From positions 124,001-188,000 of the forward strand of contig NC_009937.1 in the NCBI RefSeq assembly GCF_000010525.1: a stretch of DNA of 64,000 nt, written 5' to 3'. The DNA comes from Azorhizobium caulinodans ORS 571. Lineage in GTDB: Bacteria; Pseudomonadota; Alphaproteobacteria; Rhizobiales; Xanthobacteraceae. The notes below the pieces were generated by a model. It saw nothing but the letters and a program-made list of their open reading frames with translations, was not told the origin of the DNA and searched no databases. This document shows positions 12,051-31,720 of the stretch, piece by piece. Position numbers and translations under genes: made by a program. Numbering within the stretch: the stretch's first letter is position 1; every line of letters starts with the position of its first letter.

Positions 12051-12375
12051 GGGGGCCGGGCGCCGCCCGCCGTCGGTCTGGGCATCGCCTTCCCCATTCG
12101 TCATGGCCGGGCTTGTCCTGGGCATCCACGCCGGGTCGTTGGCGCGACCTTTGAGGACTTTCCTGGCCCTGGCCCGTAGATGGCCTGAGCAAGTGCGGCC
12201 GTGACGGAAAGGGGAGGGGTGGCGAGCGCCGCGCCGAAGCCGTGCGAGACGCGCTGCGAAGGCCGGCCGCCGCTCCGCTCGGCCGGTTGCCGTTCCGCGC
12301 CGCCACACCCGGACACCGGGAACATCCCGCGAACATCGGTCTTGCCGAGGGGCGGCGGATGGGCGAATAAGGGCC
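12051..12375. other. 325-base intergenic region with a rhizobial-type repeat fragment
   Basis: It lies between the Old Yellow Enzyme gene and pdeM. At about 12098-12133 it contains a copy resembling a short palindromic sequence common in Hyphomicrobiales intergenic DNA (core GTCATGGCCGGGCTTGTC, then GGGCATCCACG). No gene or promoter consensus is evident in the remainder. Confidence 0.45.
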
Positions 12376-13077: not shown

Positions 13078-13082
13078 CCGGG

Positions 13083-13574
13083 TCAGGCCTCCTCGTCGTC
13101 CTCGGCGCCCTCCGGCTCGTCGTCGGCGCCATGGTCGGCCCCGAGGCGGGCGGCAAGATTCTTCTCCACCTTCCGCAACAGCTTGCGCAGGCGCTTGCGC
13201 TCCTTGTTATCGAGCCCGTCGACGATCTCGGTCTCGAGCGCTTCCCAGATGCCGTCGACCGCGAGGCCGCGCTCGCGTCCGGTGCTGGTAAGGAAGACGC
13301 GCACGAGGCGGCCGTCGCCATCGGTGGCGCGGCGCTCCACAAGGCCCTGTGTGGTCAGGCGGGCAATGGTCTTGGAGGCGGTGGGCGGGCGCACGCGCAA
13401 GGCGGTGGCCAGTTCGCCCATGGTGCGGCCGTCCTGCTCCACCAGCATCTTCAGCACCGATTCCTGGCCCGGAAACAGGCCAAGGTCGGCCAGCAGGCGC
13501 GCGGAGAGCGCACGCTGGAGCCGGGCCGTGTGGTTGAGCCGGTAGCCGATGGACTTCGCAATCGGATCCTTCAT
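13083..13574 (-). CDS. MarR-family transcriptional regulator
   Basis: 163 residues from ATG at 13572-13574, which has a purine-rich site (AGGGGGCGGG) immediately upstream. The winged-helix DNA-binding core is visible: ESVLKMLVEQDGRTMGELATALRVRPPTASKTIARLTTQGLVERRATDGDGRLVRVFLT. The acidic C-terminal tail (DEPEGAEDDEEA) is an oddity. It is convergent with pdeM, five bases apart. The regulated target is unknown; the gene's own upstream region faces the autotransporter gene end. Confidence 0.88.
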   Translation of the reverse strand: MKDPIAKSIGYRLNHTARLQRALSARLLADLGLFPGQESVLKMLVEQDGRTMGELATALRVRPPTASKTIARLTTQGLVERRATDGDGRLVRVFLTSTGRERGLAVDGIWEALETEIVDGLDNKERKRLRKLLRKVEKNLAARLGADHGADDEPEGAEDDEEA

Positions 13575-13840
13575 CCCGCCCCCTCGTGCCGGCACACCGG
13601 CGATGTCAGCCTGCTGCGGATCCGGGCGGGGCCGCGAGGGTCCTGCCCGGCGCTCAGCGCCCCCACGGAAAACCACCGCCTCCCAGGGCATCTGCCTGTC
13701 CCCCTGCAAAGGGGCTGGGCGGCCCCGGTGGACGGAACCCGGCCAGAATCGGCGCGGCGCCTTCTTATCCTCACGCCGGCTTACAATTTTACAACAGAGG
13801 GGCCGTTCGGCTGCGTTCGGCGCGAAAAAGGCAAAGTGAC

Positions 13841-13858
13841 GCGGGCCGGGTGGCCCGC
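13841..13858 (-). terminator. Probable terminator of the autotransporter gene
   Basis: GCGGGCC (13841-13847) pairs with GGCCCGC (13852-13858) across a four-base loop, just past the autotransporter stop on the minus strand. A weak T-rich stretch (CACTTTGCCTTTTTCG) follows a few bases later. Confidence 0.5.
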
Positions 13859-13865
13859 GCCGACG

Positions 13866-17282: not shown

Positions 17283-17610
17283 GGAATGTAACCCCCGCAG
17301 ATCACGCTGCCCCTACGGGCGTTCCATGACGGACAGGTGACAATCAGCGCGCCTGCCATTTTCAATGACGCCGCCTCTCCTGACGGGGGGGAGGCGTGCC
17401 GTTCCGGTCACACGTGGTCGGGCGGCTTCGGCAATCCGGGGTTGCGCTTCGGGCGGTTCCGGAGGTCGCGTCGTCGATGCCGGACGCGCAAATCGGCCGG
17501 CGGCCAAACCTGTGTATGATATCGGCGGGCGCGAGCTGCGGGTAAGGTGGCGCGATGCGGGTGCGCGGAGACGGACCCGAGGTCCTGCATGTGTCGAGGT
17601 GTCCCCCGAA
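17283..17610. other. 328-base divergent intergenic region
   Basis: It lies between the autotransporter and the receiver gene and must carry both promoters. A short inverted element GGAACG/CGTTCC occurs near 17320, but no confident promoter, operator or RNA was identified. Confidence 0.4.
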
Positions 17611-18000
17611 GTGTCCCCAGTGCCGACCATCGCGATCATCGACGATGACGAAGCCGTCCGCCGGGCGACCGAAAGTCTCATCCGCTCCCTCGGGTTTGGC
17701 ACACGCTCCTTCGCGTCCGCAGAGGACTTCCTGAAGTCTGCCGAGCGCGATCAGGCCGACTGCGTCATCACCGACATTCACATGGCGGGCATGAGCGGCG
17801 TGGACCTCCAGAGCCGGCTGCGGGCCGAGGGCGACATGGTGCCCCTCATCTTCATCACCGGATATCCCGAGGAGAAGGTGCGCCGGCAGGTGGACGCGGC
17901 CGGTGCCTTCGGTTTTCTGGCCAAGCCCTTCGAAGGCAACGCCATGATCGACTGCATCGATCGCGCGCTCGAAGCACGCGCGGCCCGGCGTCCGGTCTGA
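17611..18000 (+). CDS. Orphan FixJ/NarL-type receiver domain protein
   Basis: About 129 residues forming a single receiver domain: acidic pocket IIDDDEAVR, phosphoacceptor Asp55 in CVITDIHMAGMSG, Thr in FITGYPEE, and Lys in LAKPFE. No output domain follows; the protein stops after the fifth helix. The start is uncertain: GTG codons at 17599, 17611 and 17620 are in frame. I chose 17611 because GAGGTG lies nine bases upstream. Single-domain receivers usually act by protein contact in phosphorelays. No kinase is adjacent. It is divergent from the autotransporter, which might be under the same signal, but that is a guess. Confidence 0.85.
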   Translation: MSPVPTIAIIDDDEAVRRATESLIRSLGFGTRSFASAEDFLKSAERDQADCVITDIHMAGMSGVDLQSRLRAEGDMVPLIFITGYPEEKVRRQVDAAGAFGFLAKPFEGNAMIDCIDRALEARAARRPV

Positions 18001-18388: not shown

Positions 18389-18495
18389 CAGTGGTGCGTT
18401 CCATTCCATCAGGAACAGGGCCGGGCGCCGACGCGCCGGGCCGGTTGGATGCCAGCGGTCAGGGTGAGGCTGCGGCATTCGAATTCCCGATCGCT

Positions 18496-18526
18496 GCATC
18501 CGGATGATCGTCGGGAAACCGGATGC
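18496..18526. promoter_or_regulatory. Inverted repeat upstream of the malic enzyme promoter, possible activator site
   Basis: GCATCCGG (18496-18503) is repeated inverted as CCGGATGC (18519-18526). Its centre is roughly 115 bases upstream of the predicted start, the usual distance of an enhancer site for a sigma-54 activator. Its sequence differs from the tandem operators at 26326/26358. Confidence 0.4.
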
Positions 18527-18598: not shown

Positions 18599-18614
18599 TG
18601 GCACGGCCCTTGCC
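18599..18614 (+). promoter_or_regulatory. Sigma-54 promoter of the malic enzyme-aspT operon
   Basis: TGGCACGGCCCTTGCC matches the sigma-54 -24/-12 consensus (TGGCACG, four bases, TTGC) at every invariant position. The ATG of the malic enzyme gene lies 66 bases downstream of the element, allowing a short leader. Confidence 0.85.
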
Positions 18615-18679
18615 AATCTGTTTTGCGAGGCCAGCCTCCGCCGATCTCCGGCGCGCTGCCCCTCGAGACAGAATAGAGT

Positions 18680-20356
18680 ATGGCGGACACGAAAATGGCT
18701 TCTCAGCTCAAGCACGTCGAAAGCACCAAGGCTCCCCTGCACGCGCTCGCGTCTTCCGGTCTGGCGCTGCTGCACGAACCCAACCAGAACAAGGGCACGG
18801 CCTTCTCCCGCGACGAGCGCCAGGCGCTGGGCCTCGAAGGCCTGCTGCCGCACGCGGTGGAATCCCTCGACCGGCAGGTGGAGCGCGTTCTGTCCCATCT
18901 CGATACCAAGATGGATGATCTGGAGCGCTATATCTATCTGATCGGCCTCGAAGACCGGAACGAGACCGTCTTCTACAAGACGATCATGTCCGACCCCAAG
19001 CGCTTCATCCCGATCCTCTATGACCCCACCGTCGCCGATGCCTGCCTGACCTTCGGCAATCTCTATCGCCGCGCCCGGGGCATGTACATCACCCGCCACA
19101 TGAAGGGTCGCATTGCTGAGGTGCTGCGCAACTGGCCGCGCAAGGACGTGCGCTTCATCTGCGTCTCCACCGGCGGCCGCATCCTCGGCCTTGGCGATAT
19201 CGGCGCCAATGGCATGGGCATCCCGATCGGCAAGCTCCAGCTCTATACGGCCTGCGCCGCAGTGCCGCCGGATTGCCTGCTGCCCGTTCTGTTCGACATC
19301 GGCACCACCAACGAGAGCCTCAGGGCCGATCCCTTCTATCTCGGCACCCGCGAGCCCCCGCTGGCCGAGGCGGAGCTCGATGAACTGACCGAGGAATTCA
19401 TCACCGCGGTACAGGAGGTGTTCCCCGACTGCTGCGTGCATTTCGAGGACTGGAAGGGCACCGACGCCATCCGCATGCTCGACCGCTACCGCGACCGCAT
19501 CCTGACCTACAATGACGACATCCAGGGCACGGCCAGCGTGGCGCTGGCGGGCATCGCCGCGGCGATGAACATCACCGGCGGCAAGCTCTCCGAGCAGCGG
19601 GTGCTGTTCCTCGGCGCCGGCTCCGCGGGCATCGGCATTTCCAAGCTCATCGCCGCCGAAATGCAGACCAAGGGTCTCACCGCCGAGGAGGCGCGCGCCC
19701 GCATCGCCCTCTTCGACGTCAACGGCCTCGTGGAAGCCTCGCGCACCGACCTCACCGAGGCGCAGAAGCTCTATGCCCACAAGGGTCCGCCGACCAAGGA
19801 CTTCGTGAAGTTCATCAAGGAATTCAAGCCAACCGTCCTGATCGGCGTGAGCACCAAGGCGGGGGCCTTCAACCAGCAGGTGGTGGAAGCCATGAGCCAG
19901 TTGAACGAGCGCCCGGTGATCTTCGCGCTGTCCAACCCCACCACGAAGGCCGAGTGCACGGCGGAGCAGGCCTATACCTGGTCCAAGGGCAAGGCGCTCT
20001 TCGCGGCCGGCGTACAGTTCGACGACGTGGAGTTCGAGGGCAAGATCTACCGTCCGGGCCAGGCCAACAACTTCTACATCTACCCGGCGATCGGCCTTGC
20101 CACCTATGTGGCGCGTCCCAAGCGCCTGACGGATGAGTGCTTCATCGTGGCGGCGCATGCCACCGCCGATCAGGTCGGCCCCGCGCTCTGCGCCAAGGGG
20201 ATGCTGTATCCGAGCCAGGATCAGATCCTTGAGACGGAAGTCACCACCGCGACCCGCATCGTCGAATACATGTTCGATGCCGGCCTCGCGCAGGTGGAGC
20301 GTCCCCGCGACATCCGCGCCTGGATCGAGGGGCAGCTCTACAAGCCCCACTATTGA
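18680..20356 (+). CDS. maeA: NAD-dependent malic enzyme (SfcA type)
   Basis: 558 residues, the length of the SfcA/MaeA class and not the long phosphotransacetylase-fused rhizobial form. It has the N-terminal YDPTVAD block, the catalytic region GGRILGLGDIGANGM with Lys185, metal-binding acids in FEDW (255-258) and NDDIQGT (278-284), and the NAD motif GAGSAGIGI (312-320). It decarboxylates L-malate to pyruvate and CO2, yielding NADH. The gene is preceded by a consensus sigma-54 promoter and followed 100 bases later by an AspT-type antiporter gene on the same strand. That arrangement points to C4-dicarboxylate use under sigma-54 control. Confidence 0.95.
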   Translation: MADTKMASQLKHVESTKAPLHALASSGLALLHEPNQNKGTAFSRDERQALGLEGLLPHAVESLDRQVERVLSHLDTKMDDLERYIYLIGLEDRNETVFYKTIMSDPKRFIPILYDPTVADACLTFGNLYRRARGMYITRHMKGRIAEVLRNWPRKDVRFICVSTGGRILGLGDIGANGMGIPIGKLQLYTACAAVPPDCLLPVLFDIGTTNESLRADPFYLGTREPPLAEAELDELTEEFITAVQEVFPDCCVHFEDWKGTDAIRMLDRYRDRILTYNDDIQGTASVALAGIAAAMNITGGKLSEQRVLFLGAGSAGIGISKLIAAEMQTKGLTAEEARARIALFDVNGLVEASRTDLTEAQKLYAHKGPPTKDFVKFIKEFKPTVLIGVSTKAGAFNQQVVEAMSQLNERPVIFALSNPTTKAECTAEQAYTWSKGKALFAAGVQFDDVEFEGKIYRPGQANNFYIYPAIGLATYVARPKRLTDECFIVAAHATADQVGPALCAKGMLYPSQDQILETEVTTATRIVEYMFDAGLAQVERPRDIRAWIEGQLYKPHY

Positions 20357-20456
20357 GCACTTTCCCATCCTGATCCGGAACCTGCGGGTTCCCGAGTTCC
20401 TGGGTACCGGGCCGGCGGATGCCGGCCCGGTCGACCATGTCGCTTGGAGACGTGTC

Positions 20457-22133
20457 ATGTCCTCCGTTATCGCAACCATCCAGAAGTATCCGGAGATCGC
20501 GATCTATCTCACGATCGCCATCGGCTTCTGGGTCGGGAATCTGAAGATCGGCAATTTCAGCCTCGGAACCGTCACCAGCACCCTGCTGGCGGGCCTGCTG
20601 ATCGGTCAGGCCAACATCTCGCTGCCGCCGGTGCTTCAGTCCACCTTCTTCGCCATGTTCCTGTTCGCCGTCGGCTATGCGGTGGGCCCGCAGTTCGTCC
20701 GCGCGCTCCGCAGCGATGGCCTGCCGCAAGTTGTGTTCGCGGTTCTCGTGTGCATCTCCGGTCTTGTGACGGCGGTCATTCTTGGCAAGCTCCTGGGCTA
20801 CAATGCCGCGCTCACCGCCGGCCTCCTGTCGGGCGGCTACACCAATTCCACCGTCCTCGGCGTCGCGACCGACCTCATCTCCCAGTCAGGTCTCGACCCG
20901 CAGCAACTGAAGATGGCGCTGTCGCTCATGCCGGTCGCCTATGCGGTGACCTATCCCTTCGGCACGGCGGGGTCCGCCTGGATCCTCGCCACCCTTGCCC
21001 CGAAGATGCTGAAGTTCGATCTGGCGGCGGAATGCGAGGCCTATGAGAAGGCCCATGGCACCGGCGTCGGCAACGGCACCACTGCCTATCGCGAATTCTC
21101 CGCCCGCGCCTTCCGGGTCAACAATCCGGAACTGATCGGCAAGAGCGTGCGGGAGATCGAGCGGCTGTTCAACCACGAGATCTTCGTGCGCCGGGTGCGC
21201 AACGGCAATCGCATCGTGGATTGCGACGATTGCACGGTCATCCACGAGAATGACGTGGTGGCCTTCTCCGGCAGCCTGAGCGCGCTCATCGCCTATCAGG
21301 ACCGCTTCGGCGTCGAGGTGAAGGACGTGCCCCTGCTGGACTTCTCCACCGAGCTGCTGGACCTCGTGGTGACCAACCGCGCCTATGCCAACAAGACCCT
21401 CGGCGAGATCCTGCGTACGCTGTTCGGCAAGCCCGGCCGCGGCGTGTTCCTCACCAAGTTCGTGCGGTCGGATCTGGCGATGCCGCTCAACAGCGAGATC
21501 ACCATCCAGCGGGGCGACGTGCTTACCATCCTTGGTGCCAAGGAGGACGTGGCCAAGATCGCGAAGGAGCTCGGCTATGCCGACCGTCCGCTCGAGAATT
21601 CGGATATGGCCTTCATGGGCTTCGGCATCGTGGTGGGCAGCCTGCTCGGGGCTATCACCGTGCATGTGGCGGGCATTCCGCTCAGCTTCGGCACGTCGGT
21701 GGGCGCCATCGTCGCCGGCATCTTTTGCGGCTATCTGCGCTCAACCAAGCGCACCTTCGGCCGTATCCCCGGCCCGGCGCTCTGGGTGTTCAACAATGTG
21801 GGCCTCAACGGCTTCATCGCGGTGATCGGCCTCAATGCCGCGCCCGGCTTTGTCTCGGGTCTCCAGACTTACGGTGTGACGCTGTTCCTCGCCGGAACGG
21901 TGGTGACCATGGTGCCCCTCTTCGTCGGGCTCTTCCTTGGCCACTACGTGTTCAAGTTCAACCCGGCGATCATGCTCGGCGCCTGCGCCGGCGCCCGTTC
22001 CACCACGGCGGCGCTGGGTGCTCTCCAGGATGCCGGGCGCAGCAAGGTGCCGGCGCTCGGCTACACCATCGGCTATGCGGTCTCCCGCCTCGTCATGGCC
22101 GTGCTGACCATCGTCGTCGTCAACGTCTTCTGA
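20457..22133 (+). CDS. aspT: AspT-family antiporter (aspartate:alanine / dicarboxylate exchanger)
   Basis: 558 residues from ATG 20457, preceded by a GGAGA ribosome site. Two hydrophobic blocks (about 1-180 and 385-558) flank two TrkA-C-like cytoplasmic domains (about 200-370). This is the layout of AspT and of the succinate exporter SucE. The internal repeat of the transport domain (AAALGALQ/GGYTNST-type segments) is visible. AspT exchanges aspartate for alanine; relatives export succinate. It is co-directional with the malic enzyme and terminates at a strong hairpin. In this setting dicarboxylate exchange is plausible; the substrate is inferred. Confidence 0.88.
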   Translation: MSSVIATIQKYPEIAIYLTIAIGFWVGNLKIGNFSLGTVTSTLLAGLLIGQANISLPPVLQSTFFAMFLFAVGYAVGPQFVRALRSDGLPQVVFAVLVCISGLVTAVILGKLLGYNAALTAGLLSGGYTNSTVLGVATDLISQSGLDPQQLKMALSLMPVAYAVTYPFGTAGSAWILATLAPKMLKFDLAAECEAYEKAHGTGVGNGTTAYREFSARAFRVNNPELIGKSVREIERLFNHEIFVRRVRNGNRIVDCDDCTVIHENDVVAFSGSLSALIAYQDRFGVEVKDVPLLDFSTELLDLVVTNRAYANKTLGEILRTLFGKPGRGVFLTKFVRSDLAMPLNSEITIQRGDVLTILGAKEDVAKIAKELGYADRPLENSDMAFMGFGIVVGSLLGAITVHVAGIPLSFGTSVGAIVAGIFCGYLRSTKRTFGRIPGPALWVFNNVGLNGFIAVIGLNAAPGFVSGLQTYGVTLFLAGTVVTMVPLFVGLFLGHYVFKFNPAIMLGACAGARSTTAALGALQDAGRSKVPALGYTIGYAVSRLVMAVLTIVVVNVF

Positions 22134-22348
22134 GCCAGTCCGGGCGCCGCTGTCCGCCCTTGCGGGAGGTGGCGGCGTCCGGGCGGCCGGGACCGACGGT
22201 CCGGCACGGGCCTTTCCGGGATGGGGCGCGACACGGCTTCTTCCAGCCGCCGCGCCACCTCCACCGCCACACGGCGGATCGTGCGAGGATCGCGCGGGTG
22301 CGATGCGTCCGCGCCATGGCGTGCCGGCCATGACCTCCGATCCGCTTC

Positions 22349-22382
22349 AAGGGCTGCGCCTCTCCCGGGCGCAGCCCTTTTG
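22349..22382 (+). terminator. Rho-independent terminator of the malic enzyme-aspT operon
   Basis: A 12-base stem, AAGGGCTGCGCC (22349-22360) with GGCGCAGCCCTT (22368-22379), has a seven-base loop and continues into TTTTG. Confidence 0.85.
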
Positions 22383-22480
22383 TTTCGGCAAGGTTCGGCG
22401 GACGGGTGGGGTCGCATGGAACATCCGGCGCGTCTTCCCGGCTCCGCCTTTTACGCGCCAACATGTCTGGCTCAAACGAA

Positions 22481-22505
22481 AAGCGGCGCCTCCGGGGCGC
22501 CGCTT
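22481..22505 (-). terminator. Terminator of the fumarate-reductase-like operon
   Basis: AAGCGGCGCC (22481-22490) pairs perfectly with GGCGCCGCTT (22496-22505). On the minus strand the stem is followed by TTCGTTT, and it lies 37 bases past the last stop of the operon. Confidence 0.75.
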
Positions 22506-22542
22506 GCTTTGGTGAAGAAGACCGCCGGAGCGGACCGCATGC

Positions 22543-23796
22543 TCAGGGCACGGGTGACGGCTCGCCGATCCGGTATTCGGCCGGGAACGTATGGAGCGAG
22601 CTCTCCACCACCGTCACGGCCCCGTCGATCAGCCCGCAGCGGCCGCTGCCCGGAAGGATCTGGCAGAGGTTGTAGAGGGCGGCGAGATCCGCCGGCACGG
22701 CACGCCCGCTGTCCACCCGGTCCAGCAGCCGCGCCATCTGGAACGTCCCCGCCTTGCAGGGTGGGCACTGTCCGCACGAGCCCTTGGCGAAGAAGTCGAT
22801 ATATTCCGCCACCTTGCGCACGATGCTGGTGCCTTCCGAAATGACGATCATCGCCCCGGTGCCGAGACGGGAGCGGCGCGCCCGCACGGAATCGAAGTCG
22901 AGGGCGACGTCCAGGTCGCGGGCGGTGAGCAGCGTGTTGGAGGGGCCGCCGGTGAACACCGCCTTGAAGGCCTTGCCCTCCAGCATGCCGCCCCCGTGGA
23001 CGAAGATCAGGTCCTGGAGCGGCGTGCCCATGGGCAGCTCGTAGAGCCCCGGGCGAAGCACGTCGCCCGAGAGGGAATAGAGCTTCGTGCCCACCGCCTC
23101 CCCGAGGCCGAGCCGCCGATACCACGCTGCACCGTGGCGCAGGATGTGGGGTACGTTGGCGAGCGTCTCGGTGTTGTTGATGAGCGTCGGGGTGCCGCGA
23201 TAGCCGCTTTCCGCCGGAAAGGGCGGCTTGCGGCGCGGAAAGGGAAAGCCGCCTTCGAGGCTCGAGATGACCGCCGTCTCCTCGCCGCCGATATAGCGGC
23301 CCGATGTGGGGAAGACGGTGAGTTCGAGGGTCGCTCCGATCCGCCGCTCCACCGCGCGCAGGCGATCGGTATCCGCCCATTGCGCGACGGCGCGGCGCAT
23401 CTCCGCCAACGCCTCGATCTGCTGGGGGTTGATATAGAGGAAGACGCGCCGGGCGCCGATGGCCAGTGCCGCGATCAGCGCGCCCTCGATCACCTGATGG
23501 GGCGTCCAGCGCAGCAGATGGCGATCCTTGAAGGTGCCGGGCTCGTCCTCATTGCCGTTGCAGACCACGGTCCGGTCGGTGTTCTGCGCCGCCGCGGCGG
23601 CGGCCCACTTGCGGTGGGTGGGAAAGCCGGCGCCGCCCATGCCGCGCAGGCCTGCGGCCTCCAGCGCCGGGATGATGGCGCCGGGATCGGCAAGGGCGGC
23701 GTCGAGGCCCAGCCCGCCGCCGGCGGCGAACCATCCGTCGAGGTCCGCCCCGAGCTGGATGGCGGGATTCAGCAGGATCTGATTGAGCGAGGTCAT
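22543..23796 (-). CDS. NuoF-like NADH-binding FMN/4Fe-4S subunit
   Basis: 417 residues of the 51-kDa complex I subunit family: the FMN/NADH glycine-rich region (LRGMGGAGFPTHRKW, GNEDEPGTFKDRHL, YIGGEETAVISSLEG) and the C-terminal iron-sulfur motif SCGQCPPCKAGT with a distal CQILPGSGRCGL cysteine. No other complex I genes are present. The start ATG overlaps the stop of the flavoprotein gene (ATGA), so it is the last gene of a three-gene operon. It probably feeds electrons from NADH to the iron-sulfur and flavin subunits. Relatives act in formate dehydrogenases and bifurcating hydrogenases, so the direction of electron flow is not certain. Confidence 0.88.
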   Translation of the reverse strand: MTSLNQILLNPAIQLGADLDGWFAAGGGLGLDAALADPGAIIPALEAAGLRGMGGAGFPTHRKWAAAAAAQNTDRTVVCNGNEDEPGTFKDRHLLRWTPHQVIEGALIAALAIGARRVFLYINPQQIEALAEMRRAVAQWADTDRLRAVERRIGATLELTVFPTSGRYIGGEETAVISSLEGGFPFPRRKPPFPAESGYRGTPTLINNTETLANVPHILRHGAAWYRRLGLGEAVGTKLYSLSGDVLRPGLYELPMGTPLQDLIFVHGGGMLEGKAFKAVFTGGPSNTLLTARDLDVALDFDSVRARRSRLGTGAMIVISEGTSIVRKVAEYIDFFAKGSCGQCPPCKAGTFQMARLLDRVDSGRAVPADLAALYNLCQILPGSGRCGLIDGAVTVVESSLHTFPAEYRIGEPSPVP

Positions 23797-25415
23797 GGGT
23801 TCCCCCTGTCTGTGGTGCCCCGGCGCAGAGCGAAATTGCCGTAGGTGGGATAGAGCTGCGGGGCGCGCAGATCCGCCGGCAGCCCCGCCCGCGCCAGTTC
23901 CCGCCGCCAGCGGTGGACATGGGAGAGGCCGCCGCGCCCCGGCGCGTGGGGCGGCCTCGCTTCGGCGGCGCGCGCGCCGGCCCGCCGGCCGAAGCTGATG
24001 ATGTCGAGCAGGGCGTTGCCCATCAGACGGTTGCGGCCGTGGATGCCGCCGGTGACTTCGCCGGCGCAGAACAGGCCGGGCACGGCGGTTGCCCCGTCGC
24101 CGTCGATCTCGATGCCGCCATTCTGATAGTGGAGCGTCGGATAGATGAGGAAAGGCTCGGTCCTCGGGTCGAGACCGCACTTTGCGGCCAGATGCCCGAG
24201 CGAAACGAGATCGCGCTCCAGCAGGTCCGGCCGCGCGGCGAGCGCACCGCGCACGTCGAGGAAGACGCCCGTCTCCCCGTCCCGCATGATGCCGCGCTGC
24301 TCCGCGCATTCGCGCAGGATCGCGGCGGCCACCACGTCGCGGGGCTGGAGCTCGTCCACGAAGCGCTCTCCGAGGCCGTTGAGCAACACGGCGCCGGCCG
24401 AGCGTGCGGCCTCCGAGATCAGGCCGCCCGCCAGATGGCGCGGCCAGGCGACGCCGGTCGGGTGATACTGGAAGGAATCCAGATCCCGCATCCGCGCGCC
24501 CAGCCGATAGGCCAGCACGAGGCCGTCTGCCGTCGCGCCGTAATGGTTGGAGGTCGGGAAGCCCTGGAGGTGCAGCCGGCCGCTTCCGCCGGTCGCCAGC
24601 ACGACGGCGTTGGCGCGCACCAGCAGGAAGCTGCGCCGCTCCAGATCGTACAGGACCGCACCGGCGCAACTGCCGTCCTCGTGCGACAGCAGCTCCACGG
24701 CGGGGCATCGCATGAACTGCTCGATGCCGCCTTGTAGTTCCACCGCCTCGCGCAACACGCGCATCATCTCGAGCCCGGTGAAGTCGCGGTGGCACAGGAT
24801 ACGCGCCGCCGTGGTGCCGCCGGCCCGCTTCCGCACCAGCGTCTGGCCGAGGGCCTTGTCCTGCGAGAGATCGAAAGCCATGCCGAGGTCGATGAGCCAG
24901 CGGATCACATCCGGCGCATCGCGCACCATCTGCGCGATGAGCATGTGCTCGCCCCGGCCGTGCCCGCCGCGCACGGTGTCGTCGAAATGGCGCTGCAAGC
25001 TGTCCTCCGCGCCGACCGCGGCCTGGATGCCGCCCTCCGCCATCACCGTATTGCTGTCGCCGATGCGCAGCTTGCCGGCGATGATGACGCGCGCGCCCTG
25101 CCGCGCCGCCGTGACGGCCGCCGCCGCGCCCGCGCCGCCGCCGCCGATGACCAGCACGTCCGTCGCAAGAGGCGTCGCGCGCGCGAGGTCGAGATCGTCG
25201 ATCAGCGCATTGCTCTCCAGCAGCCGGGCGAGTTCCGGGTGGCAGGCGTCACCGGCGTTGGCGCCGATGCGCAGCGGCACCCGCGCCCGCGGCCCATGGT
25301 CGGGATGGAAGCGGGCCAGGAGCGTCTCGACCGGAAGGTCGTCGCTGCGGACCGGCGGAGCCGAACCGGACGCGATGGCGGCGAGCGCCGCGGCATAGGG
25401 AATCTGGATCGTCAT
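23793..25415 (-). CDS. Fumarate-reductase/succinate-dehydrogenase-type flavoprotein
   Basis: 540 residues. The FAD-binding fold is VLVIGGGGAGAAAAV. The catalytic-domain residues of the FrdA/SdhA/NadB superfamily are kept: SFQYHPTG, the arginine in ISEAARSAGA, the histidine in LHYQNGGI, and RNRLMGNALLD. The position of the histidine that binds FAD covalently in membrane enzymes (SHT...EGG) is Asn (GDSNTVMAEGG), so FAD is likely non-covalent, as in L-aspartate oxidase and soluble fumarate reductases. It lies between an iron-sulfur and a NuoF-like subunit in a tight operon. Probable role: reduction of fumarate or a related unsaturated acid with NADH. Quinolinate-pathway NadB is unlikely in this setting. 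Confidence 0.85.
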   Translation of the reverse strand: MTIQIPYAAALAAIASGSAPPVRSDDLPVETLLARFHPDHGPRARVPLRIGANAGDACHPELARLLESNALIDDLDLARATPLATDVLVIGGGGAGAAAAVTAARQGARVIIAGKLRIGDSNTVMAEGGIQAAVGAEDSLQRHFDDTVRGGHGRGEHMLIAQMVRDAPDVIRWLIDLGMAFDLSQDKALGQTLVRKRAGGTTAARILCHRDFTGLEMMRVLREAVELQGGIEQFMRCPAVELLSHEDGSCAGAVLYDLERRSFLLVRANAVVLATGGSGRLHLQGFPTSNHYGATADGLVLAYRLGARMRDLDSFQYHPTGVAWPRHLAGGLISEAARSAGAVLLNGLGERFVDELQPRDVVAAAILRECAEQRGIMRDGETGVFLDVRGALAARPDLLERDLVSLGHLAAKCGLDPRTEPFLIYPTLHYQNGGIEIDGDGATAVPGLFCAGEVTGGIHGRNRLMGNALLDIISFGRRAGARAAEARPPHAPGRGGLSHVHRWRRELARAGLPADLRAPQLYPTYGNFALRRGTTDRGNP

Positions 25416-25419
25416 GGGC

Positions 25420-26079
25420 TCATCCTTCCGCCGGTTCGCCGGATGCGGTGGCCGGCTGCGGGCCTTCGACGGTCATGGCGCCGGTCTCGATGTCCCGCAG
25501 GCGCCGCATGAGATCGACCGGGCGCAGGGTGAGGGCGGCGATGGCCCGCCGCACGAACAGGCCGAGATGGTTGGGCCGAATGTTCTCGGGGCAGGCCAGC
25601 GTGCAGAGATTGCACATGACGCAGGGATCGAAGACCGCGGCTGCGGCGGCAAGATCTCCCGCGACGGCGCTGGCGACGCCCGACTGCACCGGAAGGCCCT
25701 TAGGACAGGCCCGATCACAGCCGCTGCAATGCCGGCAATACGCGGCTTCCGGAAACACGGCGCGGATCTGGCCGAGCAGTCCCCAGCTGTCCCTGATGTC
25801 GGAGAGGTCATAGCGATGCACATGGGCCGGCAGGAAATGGTCGATGAAGCTGACCTGCATTCCGGCTTCCACCCGCGTCTCGCAGGCGAGCGCCGTCGAT
25901 ACCTGCCGCTCCTGATCCTTGCGGATGAGACAGCGGCAGGAACCGCATACGCCCTGGCCGAGGCAGCCGACGTTCGCCGTCAGCTCGGCCCCGCTCCGGG
26001 CATAGGCCTGGAGGATCGACTGCGTGGGGTCGGCCGCGACCTCGCACCCGTCGATGGTCAAATGAACAGTTTCGCGCAC
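25420..26079 (-). CDS. Iron-sulfur subunit with 2Fe-2S and two 4Fe-4S motifs (FrdB/TfrB-like)
   Basis: 219 residues from GTG at 26077-26079, which is preceded by an AAGGAA ribosome site. The N-terminal ferredoxin domain has GCLGQGVCGSC and a later cysteine (ALACETR). The C-terminal part has two CxxCxxCxxxCP motifs, CRHCSGCDRACP and CVMCNLCTLACP, so both clusters should be 4Fe-4S; true SdhB carries one 3Fe-4S cluster. It has no membrane anchor. It would relay electrons between the NuoF-like and flavoprotein subunits. The flavoprotein start is four bases downstream. A sigma-54 promoter is about 100 bases upstream. Confidence 0.87.
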   Translation of the reverse strand: MRETVHLTIDGCEVAADPTQSILQAYARSGAELTANVGCLGQGVCGSCRCLIRKDQERQVSTALACETRVEAGMQVSFIDHFLPAHVHRYDLSDIRDSWGLLGQIRAVFPEAAYCRHCSGCDRACPKGLPVQSGVASAVAGDLAAAAAVFDPCVMCNLCTLACPENIRPNHLGLFVRRAIAALTLRPVDLMRRLRDIETGAMTVEGPQPATASGEPAEG

Positions 26080-26180
26080 GGTGAATTTCCTTCGCGGATC
26101 GCGCGGCGGGCCGGCGTGCTGCGGCCGGCATGGGGCGCCCCGTCGAGGGATGGCCCGCGCCGCGATGACCCTCTCCGGGC

Positions 26181-26196
26181 AGCAAGGCGCATGCCA
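26181..26196 (-). promoter_or_regulatory. Sigma-54 promoter of the iron-sulfur/flavoprotein/NuoF-like operon
   Basis: On the minus strand the sequence reads TGGCATGCGCCTTGCT, with the invariant GG and GC of the -24/-12 elements at correct spacing. The GTG start is about 100 bases downstream. Confidence 0.8.
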
Positions 26197-26325
26197 GTAA
26201 AGGCCGGACCGCGATCTTGCCGCACCCACGCCGCGCAAGACGGCTGGAAGGAGCTGGCATCAGAGGATTTTCGCCCCTGCGCCGCGCGTCCGCCATCCCC
26301 GCGCGGGCGTGGTGTGGGCGCAAGC

Positions 26326-26345
26326 GCGTTCCGAAACCCGAACGC
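26326..26345. promoter_or_regulatory. Operator copy 1 of a tandem pair (predicted activator site)
   Basis: GCGTTCCGAAACCCGAACGC is a 20-base imperfect inverted repeat with perfect outer arms GCGTTC/GAACGC. It matches copy 2 at 17 of 20 positions, with 32 bases start to start (about three helical turns). It lies between two divergent sigma-54 promoters, where an enhancer-binding protein would act. Confidence 0.7.
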
Positions 26346-26357
26346 GGGAACGGGCCC

Positions 26358-26377
26358 GCGTTCGGAAATCCGAATGC
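26358..26377. promoter_or_regulatory. Operator copy 2 of a tandem pair (predicted activator site)
   Basis: GCGTTCGGAAATCCGAATGC contains the perfect core TTCGGA-AA-TCCGAA. Together with copy 1 it would place dimers about 95-130 bases upstream of the plus-strand promoter and 165-200 bases upstream of the minus-strand one. Confidence 0.7.
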
Positions 26378-26436
26378 GCGCCCCGTGTCGAAGTAAATTG
26401 GCGAGTGTTTACAGAGGACTGTGGCCTATCCGGCGC

Positions 26437-26452
26437 TGGCACGGGCGTTGCT
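26437..26452 (+). promoter_or_regulatory. Sigma-54 promoter of the AEC transporter gene
   Basis: TGGCACGGGCGTTGCT is a full match to the -24/-12 consensus. It also decides the gene start: the longer reading frame beginning at 26421 would place coding sequence across the promoter, so the ATG at 26505 is used. Confidence 0.85.
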
Positions 26453-26504
26453 AACGGAACCTCATAGGCCGCGCGTCGCTTGCGGCCCAGTTCAGGGGTT
26501 CAGC

Positions 26505-27446
26505 ATGTTCGCCGTCATGACCGGGGCGCTCCTGCCCGTCGTCTTCCTCATGTTCCTCGGCTGGCTCGGCGGCAGGAAAGGCTATTTCAGGCGCGAGGAC
26601 GTGAACGTCTTCGCCGCGCTGGTCATGCGCTTCGCGCTGCCGTTTTCGCTGTTCCTGGGCGCCCTGAACACGCCGCCGGAGAAGCTCCAGAACCTGCCCT
26701 TCATCCTGTGCATGGCCTTCGGCTTCGTCGGCACCTACATCGTCGCGCTCGTCATCGCCCGCCTCGCCTTCCGCCATGACCTCAAGACCTCGGCCATCCA
26801 GGCGCTGGTCTGCACCTTTCCGGACATGGCCTATTTCGGCGCGCCCATCCTCCTTGCCGTCTGCGGTCCGTCGGGCTTCCTCGCGGTGCTCGTGGGCAAT
26901 CTCATCACCAGCTTCATCATCCTGCCGCTCACCATCGTGCTGAGCCGCTGGGGCGAGATGGCCAGCGGGCCGGACGAAAGCGGCGTCGCCGACATCCTGA
27001 AGAGCAGCCTCTGGCGCACTGTGACCAACCAGATGGTGTGGCTGCCCATCCTCGGCGTGATCCTGAGCTTCTCCGGCGTCACGCTGCCGGCCGCCCTGAA
27101 GCATTCCGTTGAGCTCGTCGCGACGACGGCGGGCGGGGTCTCGCTGCTGGCGCTGGGGCTCATGTTCTTCGGCGAGCGCCCGAGCGTGAACCTCGACGTG
27201 ACGGTGAACGTCGGGATGAAGAACGTCCTCCAGCCGGCGCTGATGGCGCTCGGCATCTTCCTCTTCGGCGTGGATGCGGAATTCGCCCGCCAGGCGCTCA
27301 TCGTCGGGGCGGTGCCCACCGCCATCGCCGCCTCCATGTTCGCCGTGCGCAACCGCACCTATGCGATGCCGGCCTCCGATTCCGTGGTCATCGGGACGGT
27401 GCTCGCCGTGTTCACCGAGGCCTTCCTCATCGCCGTCGTCCTTTGA
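26505..27446 (+). CDS. AEC family (auxin efflux carrier/malonate-malate type) transporter
   Basis: 313 residues with about ten membrane segments, starting MFAVMTGALLPVVFLMFLGWLGG. The AEC pattern of two five-helix repeats is visible, with the conserved ALPFSLFLGAL and DMAYFGAPI blocks. Bacterial AEC proteins include MdcF and malate permeases, so a dicarboxylate is likely. It is transcribed from its own sigma-54 promoter, divergent from the reductase-like operon, and is followed 175 bases later by the sensor kinase gene. An AGGGG ribosome site precedes the ATG. Confidence 0.88.
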   Translation: MFAVMTGALLPVVFLMFLGWLGGRKGYFRREDVNVFAALVMRFALPFSLFLGALNTPPEKLQNLPFILCMAFGFVGTYIVALVIARLAFRHDLKTSAIQALVCTFPDMAYFGAPILLAVCGPSGFLAVLVGNLITSFIILPLTIVLSRWGEMASGPDESGVADILKSSLWRTVTNQMVWLPILGVILSFSGVTLPAALKHSVELVATTAGGVSLLALGLMFFGERPSVNLDVTVNVGMKNVLQPALMALGIFLFGVDAEFARQALIVGAVPTAIAASMFAVRNRTYAMPASDSVVIGTVLAVFTEAFLIAVVL

Positions 27447-27621
27447 CCTGCGACAAGGTTTGCAAGCTATGGATGCGCTAGCTGTCAATGCGAAACAAGC
27501 GCGCATGCCGACCTGGGCGGGGCAGGTGCCGTGCCGCTATCGCCATCGCTGCGGCGCGCGGTGTGGAGGCAAGGTGCCTGCCGGCCTCGATCCCGTGCAC
27601 CTGACCCATCTTGAATGCGTG

Positions 27622-29466
27622 ATGACCTTCCGGCGCCGTGACTTCCTGATCTCCCTCGCCCTCGCGGTGCTGTGCGCCGTGGTGGCGGGCTGGGCCGGCT
27701 ATAAGATGGTCTGCGCCGCTGGCATCAACGAGCAGCACGCGCTCGCCGAGCGGCGCATGGACATCGCCAACGAGACGCTGGAACGGGAAATCGAGAAGTA
27801 CGGCCTCCTGCCGCGCACTGCTGCCGTCAGCCCGAACGTGATCGACTTCCTCAGCCGGCCCGCGACAGCCGAGGGCGTGGCCGAGATCAACCGCCAGCTG
27901 CGCACGCTCAACGACAGCGCCGGCACGCTCCAGACCTATCTGGTCGATCCCTCGGGCCGCATCGTCGCCTCCAGCAACTGGTCGGAGAAAGACAGCTTCA
28001 TCGGCCGGGATATCTCCTACCGGCCCTATTTCCAGAACGCCCAGCCGGGGCGGACCACCGGTTATTACGCGGTGGGCACGACGGGCGATGCCCCGGGCTA
28101 TTTCCTCGCCAGCGCGGTGGAGGACGGAGGCCGCAGGCTCGGCGTGGTCGCCGTGAAGCTCGGGCTCGACCAGCTGGAGCGGCTGTGGCTCGGCCAGCCC
28201 GAGCCGGCCCTCATGGTCGATGACAACGGCATCGTCGTCGTCTCCTCCGTACCGGACTGGAAGTTCGGCGCCCTGCGCCCGCTGCCCGCGGCGACCCTCG
28301 CCCATCTGGAAGCTTCGCAGCAATACAATCACCGGGAGATCAGGACGCTGGACTGGAAGGTGCTGACCACCTTCCGGAACGGGTCCTTCCTCGTGCGGGC
28401 GGGCACCCCGGCCGGCACCGCGACCTATCTTGCCGCCGGCCGCCCCGTGCCGGATCTGCACATGCACATGATCGTCCTCTCCGAGCCGCGCGAGGTCTAT
28501 CGGGTCGCCTGGGGATGGGCCATCGCCTGCGCGGCCCTCGCCGCCCTCGCCTGCGCCTTGCTGCACGTGCTGAACATGCGGCGGCTCAGCATCCGCGAGC
28601 GCCTTGCCATGCGCGAGGCGCTCCAGGCCTCCCACGACCGGCTGGAAATCCTCGTCGAGGCCCGCAGCGCGGAACTGCGTCGCGCCAATGAGGGCCTGCG
28701 CCGGGAGGTGAGCGAGCGCATCCAGGCCGTGAAGCAGCTCCAGTCCTTTCAGGAGGAGCTGATCCGTACCGAAAACCTCGCCGTGATCGGCCAGCTTTCC
28801 GCCGGGATCGCCCATGAGATCAACCAGCCGCTCGCGGCTCTCAGCACGCTCTCGGCCAATGCGGTGCGCTTCCTGGAGCGCAACGATCTCGCGACCGTGC
28901 GCCTCAACCTCGGGCGCATCTCCGATCTGGTGGCGCGCATGGGCGCGCTCACCGGACAACTGCGCTCCTTCGCCCGCCGCTCGACCGGCGAGATCGGGGC
29001 GACCGCCGTCGGGTTGCGCGTAGATGGCGCCGTGGCCCTGCTGGCCCATCGCCTCACGAAGGACGGTGTGGTGGTCGAGCTGCTGCCGCCCGGCGGCGTG
29101 CTCACGGTGCTGTGCGACCCGGTGCGCCTCGAGCAGGTGCTGGTCAACCTCATCAGCAATGCGGTGGATGCCAGCAGCGACCTGCGGGTGCCGCACATCC
29201 AGGTGAGCTGGGGGGCGGAGGGTGAGAGCGGGATCATCCGCGTTCGCGACAACGGCATCGGGCTGACGGACGCGGTGAAGGCGCATCTCTTCGAACCCTT
29301 CTTCACCACCAAGAAGACCAGCGGCCTCGGGCTCGGGCTCGCCATTTCCGCCGACATCATCCGCGGCTTCGGCGGCGCGCTGACGGCCGACAACAATCCT
29401 GATGGCGGAGCCACCTTCACCATCACGCTGCCCCTCGCCGAGCAGAAGGAGACCTGCGATGCCTGA
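27622..29466 (+). CDS. DctB-like membrane sensor histidine kinase
   Basis: 614 residues. An N-terminal membrane helix (residues 8-32) is followed by a periplasmic double-Cache-type domain (YLVDPSGRIVASSNW, GRDISYRPYF, GYYAVGTT) to about 290. A second membrane helix comes next (AWGWAIACAALAALACALL), then a coiled coil. The kinase core has the phospho-acceptor His398 in GIAHEINQPLAAL, the N box NLISNAVDAS, G1 DNGIGL and G2 GLGLGLAIS. This is the DctB layout for C4-dicarboxylate sensing. The end overlaps the response regulator start by eight bases. Confidence 0.9.
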   Translation: MTFRRRDFLISLALAVLCAVVAGWAGYKMVCAAGINEQHALAERRMDIANETLEREIEKYGLLPRTAAVSPNVIDFLSRPATAEGVAEINRQLRTLNDSAGTLQTYLVDPSGRIVASSNWSEKDSFIGRDISYRPYFQNAQPGRTTGYYAVGTTGDAPGYFLASAVEDGGRRLGVVAVKLGLDQLERLWLGQPEPALMVDDNGIVVVSSVPDWKFGALRPLPAATLAHLEASQQYNHREIRTLDWKVLTTFRNGSFLVRAGTPAGTATYLAAGRPVPDLHMHMIVLSEPREVYRVAWGWAIACAALAALACALLHVLNMRRLSIRERLAMREALQASHDRLEILVEARSAELRRANEGLRREVSERIQAVKQLQSFQEELIRTENLAVIGQLSAGIAHEINQPLAALSTLSANAVRFLERNDLATVRLNLGRISDLVARMGALTGQLRSFARRSTGEIGATAVGLRVDGAVALLAHRLTKDGVVVELLPPGGVLTVLCDPVRLEQVLVNLISNAVDASSDLRVPHIQVSWGAEGESGIIRVRDNGIGLTDAVKAHLFEPFFTTKKTSGLGLGLAISADIIRGFGGALTADNNPDGGATFTITLPLAEQKETCDA

Positions 29467-30787
29467 CCTCAAGGTTCTCATCGTCGAGGACGACGAGGAC
29501 GTCCGCCTCGGCTGCCTCCAGGCGCTTGAGCTGGAAGGCCTCACGGTCATCGGCGCGAAGTGCGTGGAGCAGGTTCCACGCATGGCGCCGCAGGATTTTC
29601 CCGGCGTCGTGGTGACGGACATCCGCATGCCCGGCATGGACGGCATGGCCTATCTGCGCCAGCTCGTGGAGGCGGATGCCGATCTTCCCGTCATCCTCAT
29701 CACCGGCCATGGCGATGTGGCGACGGCGGTGCAGGCCATGCGCGACGGGGCCTATGACTTCATTCAGAAGCCCTTCTCGCCGGAGCAACTGGTGGGCGTG
29801 GTGCAGCGGGCGCTGGAGAAGCGGCGGCTGACCATGGAGGTGCGGGCCCTCCGTCGCCAGGTGGCGGCCATCGGCGGCCTCGAAAGCCGCATCGTCGGGC
29901 GCTCGGCGGCGGTGGTGGAGCTGCGCGCTCTGGTGCAGGACCTTGCCGCGACGCCCACCGACGTGATGATCCTGGGCGAGACCGGCTGCGGCAAGGAGCT
30001 GATCGCCCGCTGCCTGCACGACCTCTCCGGCCGGACCGGGCCGTTCGTGGCGCTCAATTGCGGCGGCCTGCCGGAGACGCTGTTCGAGAGCGAGATATTC
30101 GGCCATGAGGCCGGCGCCTTCTCGGGCGCCGCCAAGCAGCGCATCGGCAAGGTCGAGCATGCCCAGCGCGGCACGCTGTTTCTCGACGAGATCGAGAGCA
30201 TGCCCATGGCCATGCAGGTCAAGTTTCTGCGCGTGCTGCAGGAGCGCGTGGTGGAGCGGCTCGGCTCCAACCGTCTCATTCCTGTTGATTTCCGGGTCAT
30301 TGCGGCGACAAAGGCCGATCTCGGCGCGCTCTCGGAAGAGGGAAAATTCCGCGCCGATCTGCATTTCCGCCTCAACGTGGCGACCATCGACCTGCCGCCG
30401 CTGCGCGACCGGCGGGAGGATATTCCGCTTCTGTTCCAGTACTTTGTCAGCCAGGCCGCGCTGCGCCTGGACCGCCCTGCGCCGGAGATCCGCGACAGCC
30501 ACATCCGCGAACTCATGGCCCACAAATGGCGCGGCAATGTCCGCGAACTGCGCAACGAGGCGGAGCGCTATGTGCTCGGGCTGAAGTCGAGCATCGGTCA
30601 GGGCGCGTCCGATACGCCGGCACCGCTCAGCCAGACGGTGGAAGTCTTTGAGCGAGGGATCATCGCCGAAGAGCTGCGGCGCCAGCACGGCAACATCTCG
30701 CGGGCAGCTGAAGCGCTGCGCATCGCCAAAACCACCTTGTTCGACAAGATCCGCAAATACGGCATCGAGACCGCACCACTGGTCTGA
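29459..30787 (+). CDS. DctD-like sigma-54-dependent response regulator
   Basis: 442 residues: a receiver domain with Asp54 (VVTDIRMPGMDG) and Lys in IQKPFS; an AAA+ domain with Walker A GETGCGKE (173-180), Walker B TLFLDEIESM, and a sigma-54-contact loop written GAFSGA (219-224), where most family members have GAFTGA; and a C-terminal Fis-type helix-turn-helix (GNISRAAEALRIAKTTLFDKIRKYG). It is the likely activator of the sigma-54 promoters at 18599, 26181 and 26437. It overlaps the kinase gene, so the two are co-translated. The Thr-to-Ser change is conservative and may be tolerated. Confidence 0.92.
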   Translation: MPDLKVLIVEDDEDVRLGCLQALELEGLTVIGAKCVEQVPRMAPQDFPGVVVTDIRMPGMDGMAYLRQLVEADADLPVILITGHGDVATAVQAMRDGAYDFIQKPFSPEQLVGVVQRALEKRRLTMEVRALRRQVAAIGGLESRIVGRSAAVVELRALVQDLAATPTDVMILGETGCGKELIARCLHDLSGRTGPFVALNCGGLPETLFESEIFGHEAGAFSGAAKQRIGKVEHAQRGTLFLDEIESMPMAMQVKFLRVLQERVVERLGSNRLIPVDFRVIAATKADLGALSEEGKFRADLHFRLNVATIDLPPLRDRREDIPLLFQYFVSQAALRLDRPAPEIRDSHIRELMAHKWRGNVRELRNEAERYVLGLKSSIGQGASDTPAPLSQTVEVFERGIIAEELRRQHGNISRAAEALRIAKTTLFDKIRKYGIETAPLV

Positions 30788-30823: not shown

Positions 30824-31720
30824 ATGGAAATCAGGACATTACGCGCGTTCGTCGAGGTCGTGCGCCAGGGTGGCTTCTCCAATGCCGCAAAAGCCATCCT
30901 CGCCACGCAGAGCACGGTCAGCAAGGCCGTCCGCCAGCTCGAGGACGAGCTGGGGCTGCCGCTGCTCGATCGTCTCGGCCACAGCAGCCGGCTGACGGCG
31001 GCGGGCGAGATCGTCTACCGGCGGGCGGCGGTCATGCTGGCCGAGCGGGAGGATCTGGTGAGCGAACTCGACGAACTGCGGGGCCTCACGCGCGGGGTGC
31101 TGCGGCTCGGCCTGCCGCCGCTCGGCAGCAACATCCTGTTCGCGCCGCTGTTTGCCCTCTATCGCCAGCGCTTTCCCGGCATCGAGATCAAGCTTCACCA
31201 GCATGGCAGCCGGCGGCTGGAGGAGATGGTTCTGGCGGGCGAAATGGACCTTGCAGGCTCGCTCCTGCCGGTGGCGCCCGACTTCGCCTGGCAGTCCATC
31301 CATCAGGAGCCGATCGTGGCGCTGCTGCCGGCCTCGCACCGCCTCGCCGGCGCGGCGCGCGTGGACCTGGGGGACCTCGCCGCCGATCCCTTCCTGCTGT
31401 TTCAGGAGGGCTTCGCCATCGATACGGTGCTGCAGGCGGCCTGCGAGCGGCGGGGCCTGAAGCCGCAGGTGGCCGTGCGCAGCGCCCAGGCCGATTTTCT
31501 GGTCGAACTGGTCGCCGCGGAGGTGGGGGTGACGTTTCTTCCGCGCATGATCGCGGACCAGCGCCCCCGCCCCGGCGTCGCCCGCGTGCTGCTGGATGAG
31601 CCGGGCACCGACTGGCACATGGCCCTCGTCTGGCGCAAAGGCGGCTACCTCTCCCGCGCCGCCCTCGCGTGGCTGGACCTCAGCCGCGAAGTCCTCGCCG
31701 CCAATGCGGCGGCGGCCTGA
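30824..31720 (+). CDS. LysR-family transcriptional regulator
   Basis: 298 residues with an N-terminal winged helix (MEIRTLRAFVEVVRQGGFSNAAKAILATQSTVSKAVRQLEDELG) and a periplasmic-binding-like effector domain (GVLRLGLPPLGSN...). It lies 36 bases after the sigma-54 activator gene on the same strand, so it may be co-transcribed and be a second regulator of the same locus. LysR proteins often bind near palindromes of the T-N11-A type. The palindrome at 18369 and the repeat at 18496 are candidates, without direct evidence. Confidence 0.9.
   Translation: MEIRTLRAFVEVVRQGGFSNAAKAILATQSTVSKAVRQLEDELGLPLLDRLGHSSRLTAAGEIVYRRAAVMLAEREDLVSELDELRGLTRGVLRLGLPPLGSNILFAPLFALYRQRFPGIEIKLHQHGSRRLEEMVLAGEMDLAGSLLPVAPDFAWQSIHQEPIVALLPASHRLAGAARVDLGDLAADPFLLFQEGFAIDTVLQAACERRGLKPQVAVRSAQADFLVELVAAEVGVTFLPRMIADQRPRPGVARVLLDEPGTDWHMALVWRKGGYLSRAALAWLDLSREVLAANAAAA

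Follow-up and report, generated by a model that had tools for sequence, protein, structure and literature searches.

A sigma-54 gene block of Azorhizobium caulinodans, probably an AauSR-type regulon with malic enzyme, AspT and a fumarate reductase-like trio as predicted targets

The window analysed here is a 64-kb stretch of DNA from Azorhizobium caulinodans ORS 571, covering bases 124001-188000 of a single contig, and it holds a compact block of genes for transport and C4-acid metabolism together with a sensor kinase and an enhancer-binding response regulator (Table 1). A malic enzyme gene is followed by aspT; a trio encoding an iron–sulfur (FeS) protein, a flavoprotein and a NuoF-like subunit is read from the opposite strand; and a carrier of the AEC family is followed by the kinase and the activator. 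Each of these three groups is preceded by a sigma-54 -24/-12 element. The original prediction for this stretch had placed sigma-54 promoters at these three sites, each before a transport or C4-acid gene, and both statements hold. It had also taken the kinase and activator for DctB and DctD, the C4-dicarboxylate regulators of rhizobia, an identity that is not upheld below. Comparison of sequences suggests instead, with a probability that we would put at roughly three in four, that the block is a two-component regulon of the AauSR type, representing a sister lineage with other targets.

Table 1. Features of the block, in window coordinates
Feature	Position	Strand	Remarks
Tandem AauR-like boxes upstream of malic enzyme	18475-18494 GCATTCGAATTCCCGATCGC + 18507-18526 ATCGTCGGGAAACCGGATGC	+	32 bp apart
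Sigma-54 -24/-12 element, malic enzyme-aspT	18599-18614	+	TGGCACGGCCCTTGCC; strict match
Malic enzyme (oxaloacetate-decarboxylating malate dehydrogenase)	18680-20356	+	NF010052, over cut-off
AspT aspartate:alanine antiporter	20457-22133	+	TIGR03802 equivalog, 581.9 vs cut-off 546.95 bits
NuoF-like NADH/FMN/4Fe-4S subunit	22543-23793	-	Below NuoF equivalog cut-offs
FrdA/TfrA-like FAD flavoprotein	23793-25415	-	C4-acid site kept
2Fe-2S/4Fe-4S subunit (FrdB/TfrB-like)	25420-26079	-	Domain matches
Sigma-54 element, reductase operon	26181-26196	-	TGGCATGCGCCTTGCT; strict match
Tandem AauR boxes between the divergent promoters	26326-26345 GCGTTCCGAAACCCGAACGC + 26358-26377 GCGTTCGGAAATCCGAATGC	+	32 bp apart
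Sigma-54 element, AEC and probably aauSR	26437-26452	+	TGGCACGGGCGTTGCT; strict match
AEC-family carrier	26505-27446	+	PF03547
AauS/DctB-superfamily sensor kinase	27469-29466	+	Four-Cys N-terminus, periplasmic dCache, HisKA, HATPase
AauR-type enhancer-binding response regulator	29459-30787	+	REC-AAA+(sigma-54)-Fis helix–turn–helix; domains, tree
LysR-family regulator	30824-31720	+	CidR-like, below cut-off; directly downstream of activator

Sigma-54 promoters and tandem boxes

The strict sigma-54 pattern, TGGCA[CT]-N5-TTGC, occurs in the window exactly three times, at the sites listed in Table 1. Over 100 order-1 Markov simulations of the window the mean was 0.28 strict sites, and no simulation contained three or more. 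Relaxing the pattern to at most 2 mismatches to TGGCACN5TTGC gives 73 matches against 72.6 expected, a stringency at which the motif is uninformative. The genome contains 46 strict matches (30 TGGCAC and 16 TGGCAT), compared with 9 for the reversed patterns (8 and 1). Transcription would be predicted to start near 18624, 26170 and 26463, and start codons lie downstream at 18680, 26079 and 26505.

Upstream of the promoters lie two sets of tandem palindromes (18475-18526 and 26326-26377) that were absent from the original prediction. They resemble the binding site TTCGG-N4-CCGAA, which two papers report for AauR from a footprint in P. putida (PMC7962211, PMC7386598). Published coordinates put two AauR motifs of P. 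aeruginosa within 46 bp, and by arithmetic this corresponds to a spacing of 32 bp. In the pair between the divergent promoters the first box has 1 mismatch in its core and the second carries an exact core at 26361. The 26437 element follows this second core by 62 bp, and the 26181 element on the minus strand is 132-133 bp from the nearer core. The pair before malic enzyme has 2+2 mismatches, and 75 bp separate the end of its second core from the -24 element.

The combination of a sigma-54 site and a box pair was observed three times in the window and in none of the 100 simulations. The same combination was sought through the genome as a pair with at most 5 mismatches in total, spaced by 31-33 bp and lying no more than 260 bp upstream of a strict sigma-54 site. 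Three of the 46 strict sites have such a pair, and all three belong to the present block. The description of the locus as a compact, apparently self-contained regulon with its own activator is supported by this restriction of the arrangement, among strict sites, to its three promoters; further AauR targets may exist behind weaker sigma-54 variants.

Related loci and the lineage of the activator

Five relatives carry the same island: a second Azorhizobium (L270), Xanthobacter oligotrophicus (L052, the same contig as L272 and counted once), what is by its label another genome of that genus (L271), Pseudochelatococcus (L053) and Roseomonas (L054). With the window this makes six loci. In each of them aspT adjoins the malic enzyme gene, and the trio, the kinase and the activator are all present; box pairs lie between the reductase and the kinase or AEC gene in 5/5 relatives. 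A scan of such loci for -24/-12 elements had been proposed with the original prediction. It gives a clear result in L270, where exact sigma-54 sites stand out in the alignments at all three equivalent places, and where a box pair (1+3 mismatches, 32 bp) occupies the equivalent position in the malic-enzyme region; the other relatives are less regular. Before malic enzyme, a strict sigma-54 site is present in L052, L053 and L271, and a box pair in L052 and L271; in L054 this promoter lies beyond the contig end. Sites resembling those of IHF were considered between box and promoter; they are exact in L270, L052 and L271 and have 2-3 mismatches in the window, and are not claimed here.

A wider set of loci was collected with the activator, using the best 80 of 553 relatives (L052-L131), and an exact box is present in 63 of these 80. 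Box-pair spacing was tested over 82 loci totalling 1.63 Mb (the 80 plus the window and a locus on an Azospirillum plasmid), allowing at most 3 mismatches per pair, so that the malic-enzyme pair of the window, with 4, is not counted. Pairs at 31-33 bp number 72, in 69 of the 82 loci, compared with 3, 1, 2, 1 and 0 for five control spacing sets, and the -24 element usually lies 61-87 bp beyond the second box. The genes behind 71 box promoters in 67 of the relatives' loci encode an AatJ-like binding protein (45), an SDF symporter (12), an aspartase-like protein (4), the kinase itself (3), an FrdB-like protein (2) or malic enzyme (1), the last 4 having been read in a wrong frame and left unassigned. 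In one locus Pfam confirmed the AatJ type, and two permeases and an ATPase follow there; the SDF and aspartase names are readings of the translations. As named, the three largest groups of targets fit acidic amino acids. Beside the island of the Pseudochelatococcus locus (L053, 2822-2956) an SDF-like symporter likewise has paired AauR boxes with a strict sigma-54 site, and is possibly a further member of that regulon.

The activator combines REC, AAA+ and Fis domains and has an adjacent dCache histidine kinase, which is the architecture of AauSR. Its lineage was examined in a maximum-likelihood tree of 37 activators, comprising those of the window, L270 and L271, 32 of the 85 collected activators and 2 other enhancer-binding proteins of the genome. 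The six island activators form one clade (100/99) that joins the group holding Pseudomonas AauR at 98/97. The DctD proteins of A. caulinodans and R. leguminosarum stand together outside the island/AauR group (100/99), and the tree does not place the window activator in the DctD clade. Its recognition helix is AauR-type as well.

The window system has in common with Pseudomonas AauS-AauR a response-regulator enhancer-binding protein with a Fis-type helix–turn–helix, sigma-54 promoters, a dCache kinase and tandem TTCGG-N4-CCGAA boxes (PMC7962211, PMC7386598). It differs in its predicted targets, which are malic enzyme-aspT, the reductase trio and AEC-aauSR here and aatJQMP in Pseudomonas. It also differs in the four-cysteine segment at the N-terminus of the kinase, and in an activator whose clade is separate from, and adjoins, that of the other AauR proteins. 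The position of the island as sister to AauR, rather than within it, is weakly resolved (84/84).

The sensor kinase and its ligand

The kinase was correctly recognized by the original prediction as to gene type, a dCache kinase, but its start is probably at 27469 rather than 27622, since relatives share the additional N-terminal residues. This extension (27469-27640) contains a C-X5-C-X3-C-X17-C segment ahead of the first membrane helix. The motif C-X5-C-X3-C-X(15-17)-C is present in all six island kinases (X15 in L054) and absent from 81 others: a scan of 84 kinases found it in 3 (L052-L054), and the proteins of the window, L270 and L271 were viewed separately. No Pfam family scored over its cut-off on the N-terminus, and a metal or Fe-S site at these cysteines is our guess. 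A still wider proposal, speculative and on balance doubtful, is that a lineage of AauS-type kinases uses a metal or Fe-S centre in the four-Cys segment to read redox state or iron in addition to an acidic amino acid. Such kinases would drive a low-oxygen aspartate metabolism, composed of malic enzyme-AspT exchange-decarboxylation and NADH-dependent fumarate reduction, in a nitrogen-fixing symbiont.

The sensor domain has three matches in the PDB, all of DctB type, and it keeps an Arg and a Lys that are shared by the DctB rows. In DctB these two residues take part in ligand binding. Where Pseudomonas AauS has Glu and rhizobial DctB has Arg or Lys, the window protein has Ala. One published study places AauS, DctB and MifS in one carboxylate-binding group, a clade recovered in only 29/100 bootstrap replicates (PMC8694187). 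On the AauSR-type reading the ligand is probably aspartate or glutamate. C4-dicarboxylates may be sensed, because the sensor domains of AauS and DctB are alike and that of the window matches neither exactly.

The DctB-type PDB matches and the retained Arg and Lys lend themselves to another reading, in which the pair is a second DctBD that senses malate, fumarate and succinate but acts on new targets, namely malic enzyme/AspT, the reductase and the AEC carrier. Malic enzyme and fumarate reductase do use C4 acids, and the Ala that replaces the Glu of AauS and the Arg/Lys of DctB may fall in the binding pocket, so that the ligand may not be an amino acid. The activator nevertheless belongs by lineage and recognition helix to the AauR type, the enhancers are AauR boxes, and the genome has a DctD of its own. 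The nearest paralogue of the activator in the genome is this DctD-type protein (48.5% identical), encoded at G000:C1:3443547-3444854 beside an SDF/dctA gene near 3.44 Mb of the contig; identity of the activator to the DctD proteins of A. caulinodans and R. leguminosarum is 48.5-50%. The sigma-54 site before dctA has no box pair by the genome criterion given above. Within the block there is no dctA, the four SDF genes of the genome lying elsewhere (no search for dctPQM was made), and the earlier statement that the targets are other than dctA is supported. A second DctBD is unlikely in our judgement, and on lineage and boxes we reject the identification of the pair as DctBD. What the pair shares with DctB-DctD of rhizobia is the superfamily of dCache kinase and enhancer-binding protein, the part of the original assignment that stands. 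The regulator type was misread: the activator lies in a separate clade, recognizes what appears to be another DNA site and has no dctA beside it.

The reductase trio, the proposed pathway and points against it

The flavoprotein of the trio keeps the C4-acid residues H244, T259, E260, R290, H351 and R386 (NadB numbering), with T259 replaced by Ser. These residues form the C4-acid site in this family of enzymes. The His that would bind FAD covalently is replaced by Asn. Glu121 of NadB is needed for aspartate oxidation, and its counterpart is Ala in all five island flavoproteins aligned, that of the window included (L271 was not aligned). Among family models the protein scores 319.8 bits with TfrA, 276.3 with fumarate reductase/succinate dehydrogenase and 264.6 with NadB, all below cut-off. 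The first 80 residues form an N-terminal extension before the FAD domain, which is common to the aligned relatives and lacking in E. coli FrdA and NadB.

The simplest prediction for the trio is an NADH:fumarate oxidoreductase, because a C4-acid flavoprotein without Glu121 is joined by FeS and NuoF-like subunits. A NADH-dependent fumarate reductase is known from Hydrogenobacter thermophilus, and TfrAB is a thiol:fumarate reductase. The window trio resembles them in having a TfrA-like flavoprotein with an FeS subunit and differs in being a three-gene set with a NuoF-like partner; the Hydrogenobacter enzyme is likened by description. No paper on a NADH-dependent fumarate reductase with NuoF was found in the open-licence literature. 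If the trio were instead a NAD-linked L-aspartate dehydrogenase or oxidase feeding oxaloacetate, it would agree with a promoter shared with acidic-amino-acid control and with the below-cut-off NadB score. The higher scores of the TfrA and fumarate reductase/succinate dehydrogenase models and the Ala at Glu121 in the five aligned island flavoproteins speak against this, and the Glu121 replacement makes an aspartate-oxidase reading improbable.

Under the AauSR-type reading the kinase would bind periplasmic aspartate or glutamate, or a close C4 acid, and phosphorylate the activator. On the box pairs the activator would then promote sigma-54 transcription of malic enzyme-aspT and of the FeS-flavoprotein-NuoF trio, and would also drive AEC-aauS-aauR in a positive autoregulation. 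AspT would import aspartate, the carbon of which would pass to oxaloacetate and malate; malic enzyme would convert malate to pyruvate, and pyruvate would take up the amino group and leave through AspT as alanine. The route would amount to a multi-enzyme equivalent of the cycle formed by aspartate decarboxylase and antiporter, AspD-AspT. It has the AspT aspartate:alanine antiporter in common with that cycle, but no aspartate decarboxylase lies between or beside the named genes of the window, and it is malic enzyme that adjoins aspT. The trio would pass electrons from NADH to fumarate and so aid redox balance at low oxygen.

In the accepted view, rhizobia feed on C4-dicarboxylates from the plant by way of DctBD; the exchange of amino acids between rhizobia and plant is debated. 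If the proposed regulon is real, it would offer a specific and easily mutated system in which to study how free-living and nodule bacteria metabolize aspartate. The targets of AauR would then also reach further than those named in PMC7962211 and PMC7386598. The open-licence literature yielded no apparent link between AauR and malic enzyme. The malic enzyme of the window is presumably azc0119, which has reportedly been studied by Zhang and co-workers in 2012; under the tag AZC_0119 no mention was found in the same literature.

Several observations weigh against the AauSR-type reading and its pathway. The distance from box to reductase promoter (132 bp) exceeds the usual 61-87 bp, and the degenerate malic-enzyme pair draws its support from spacing, position and the L270 pair. 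The sigma-54 site that faces the reductase has an exact counterpart in L270 and L053, an imperfect one in L052 and L054, and none with 1 mismatch or fewer in L271; before malic enzyme in L053 no box pair is convincing; and the AEC carrier is found in 2/6 island loci, both of Azorhizobium (window and L270). Some residues of the sensor domain match neither AauS nor DctB. In the tree, a group of the other AauR rows that leaves out the island has a support of just 84/84, and the program warns of long branches for L237, L239, the A. caulinodans DctD and two outgroup rows, adding that the join of DctD rows with L237 may be false. An adjacent aatJQMP, a Pseudomonas trait that was not treated as defining, is not in the block, the rest of the genome not having been searched. 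No aspA scores over the family cut-off in the genome, which makes a direct aspartase route unlikely; aspartate would probably be transaminated. Finally, six plasmid records (L230-L235) have the trio without AauSR or boxes within 12 kb, and for this reason the control of the trio by AauR looks like a lineage-specific capture.

The reductase itself is rare. At an E value of 1e-100 it was found in 6/391 sampled genomes of the family, 2/397 of the order, 1/385 of the class and 31/398 of the phylum, counts that include the window's own genome each time, and in 8 plasmid records, among them L230-L235. The L231 record encodes another enhancer-binding protein (42% identical). In that record, from Cupriavidus metallidurans, an SDF carrier follows the trio (11348-16388), and in L230, a Pseudoroseomonas plasmid, the trio comes after genes of a sugar phosphotransferase system (11180-14783).

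Single boxes are not diagnostic, because they show no excess over the backward control in the genome (285 against 295 at up to 1 mismatch); a 20-base form with up to 3 mismatches gave 185 against 153. Searched at 32 bp, the inner pattern of the pair matches in 15 rows when up to 1 mismatch is allowed; these fall into about 11 regions, including the two present enhancers. With up to 2 mismatches allowed, the control is the commoner (178/166, against 116/110 for the pattern). Within 220 bp of the remaining nine regions there is no strict sigma-54 site (a site with 1 mismatch occurs at one of them), and each region lies inside an open frame of 232-834 aa. That the box pairs are chance palindromes in GC-rich sequence, non-functional, with promoters that answer to another enhancer-binding protein, is very improbable. 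In favour of it, the pair before malic enzyme is weak, neither single boxes nor the inner pattern are commoner in the genome than their backward controls, and nine further regions fit the inner pattern no worse than the present two. Against it, those nine lack a strict sigma-54 site within 220 bp and all fall in open frames, the spacing and position recur in five relatives, and the simulations gave no case against the three observed. A box pair spaced by 31-33 bp and followed by a sigma-54 site would serve as a sequence diagnostic to tell AauR-type from DctD-type systems. A palindrome at G000:C1:1171830 (2 mismatches) was set aside; it lies near two sigma-54 sites, neither of which has an upstream box pair.

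Two regulatory genes flank the block. A receiver-domain response regulator (17365-18000), below all NCBIfam cut-offs listed, lies just upstream of the malic-enzyme enhancer region. The LysR-family gene at the other end has matching genes in L270, L052 and L271, and its product is a possible co-regulator.

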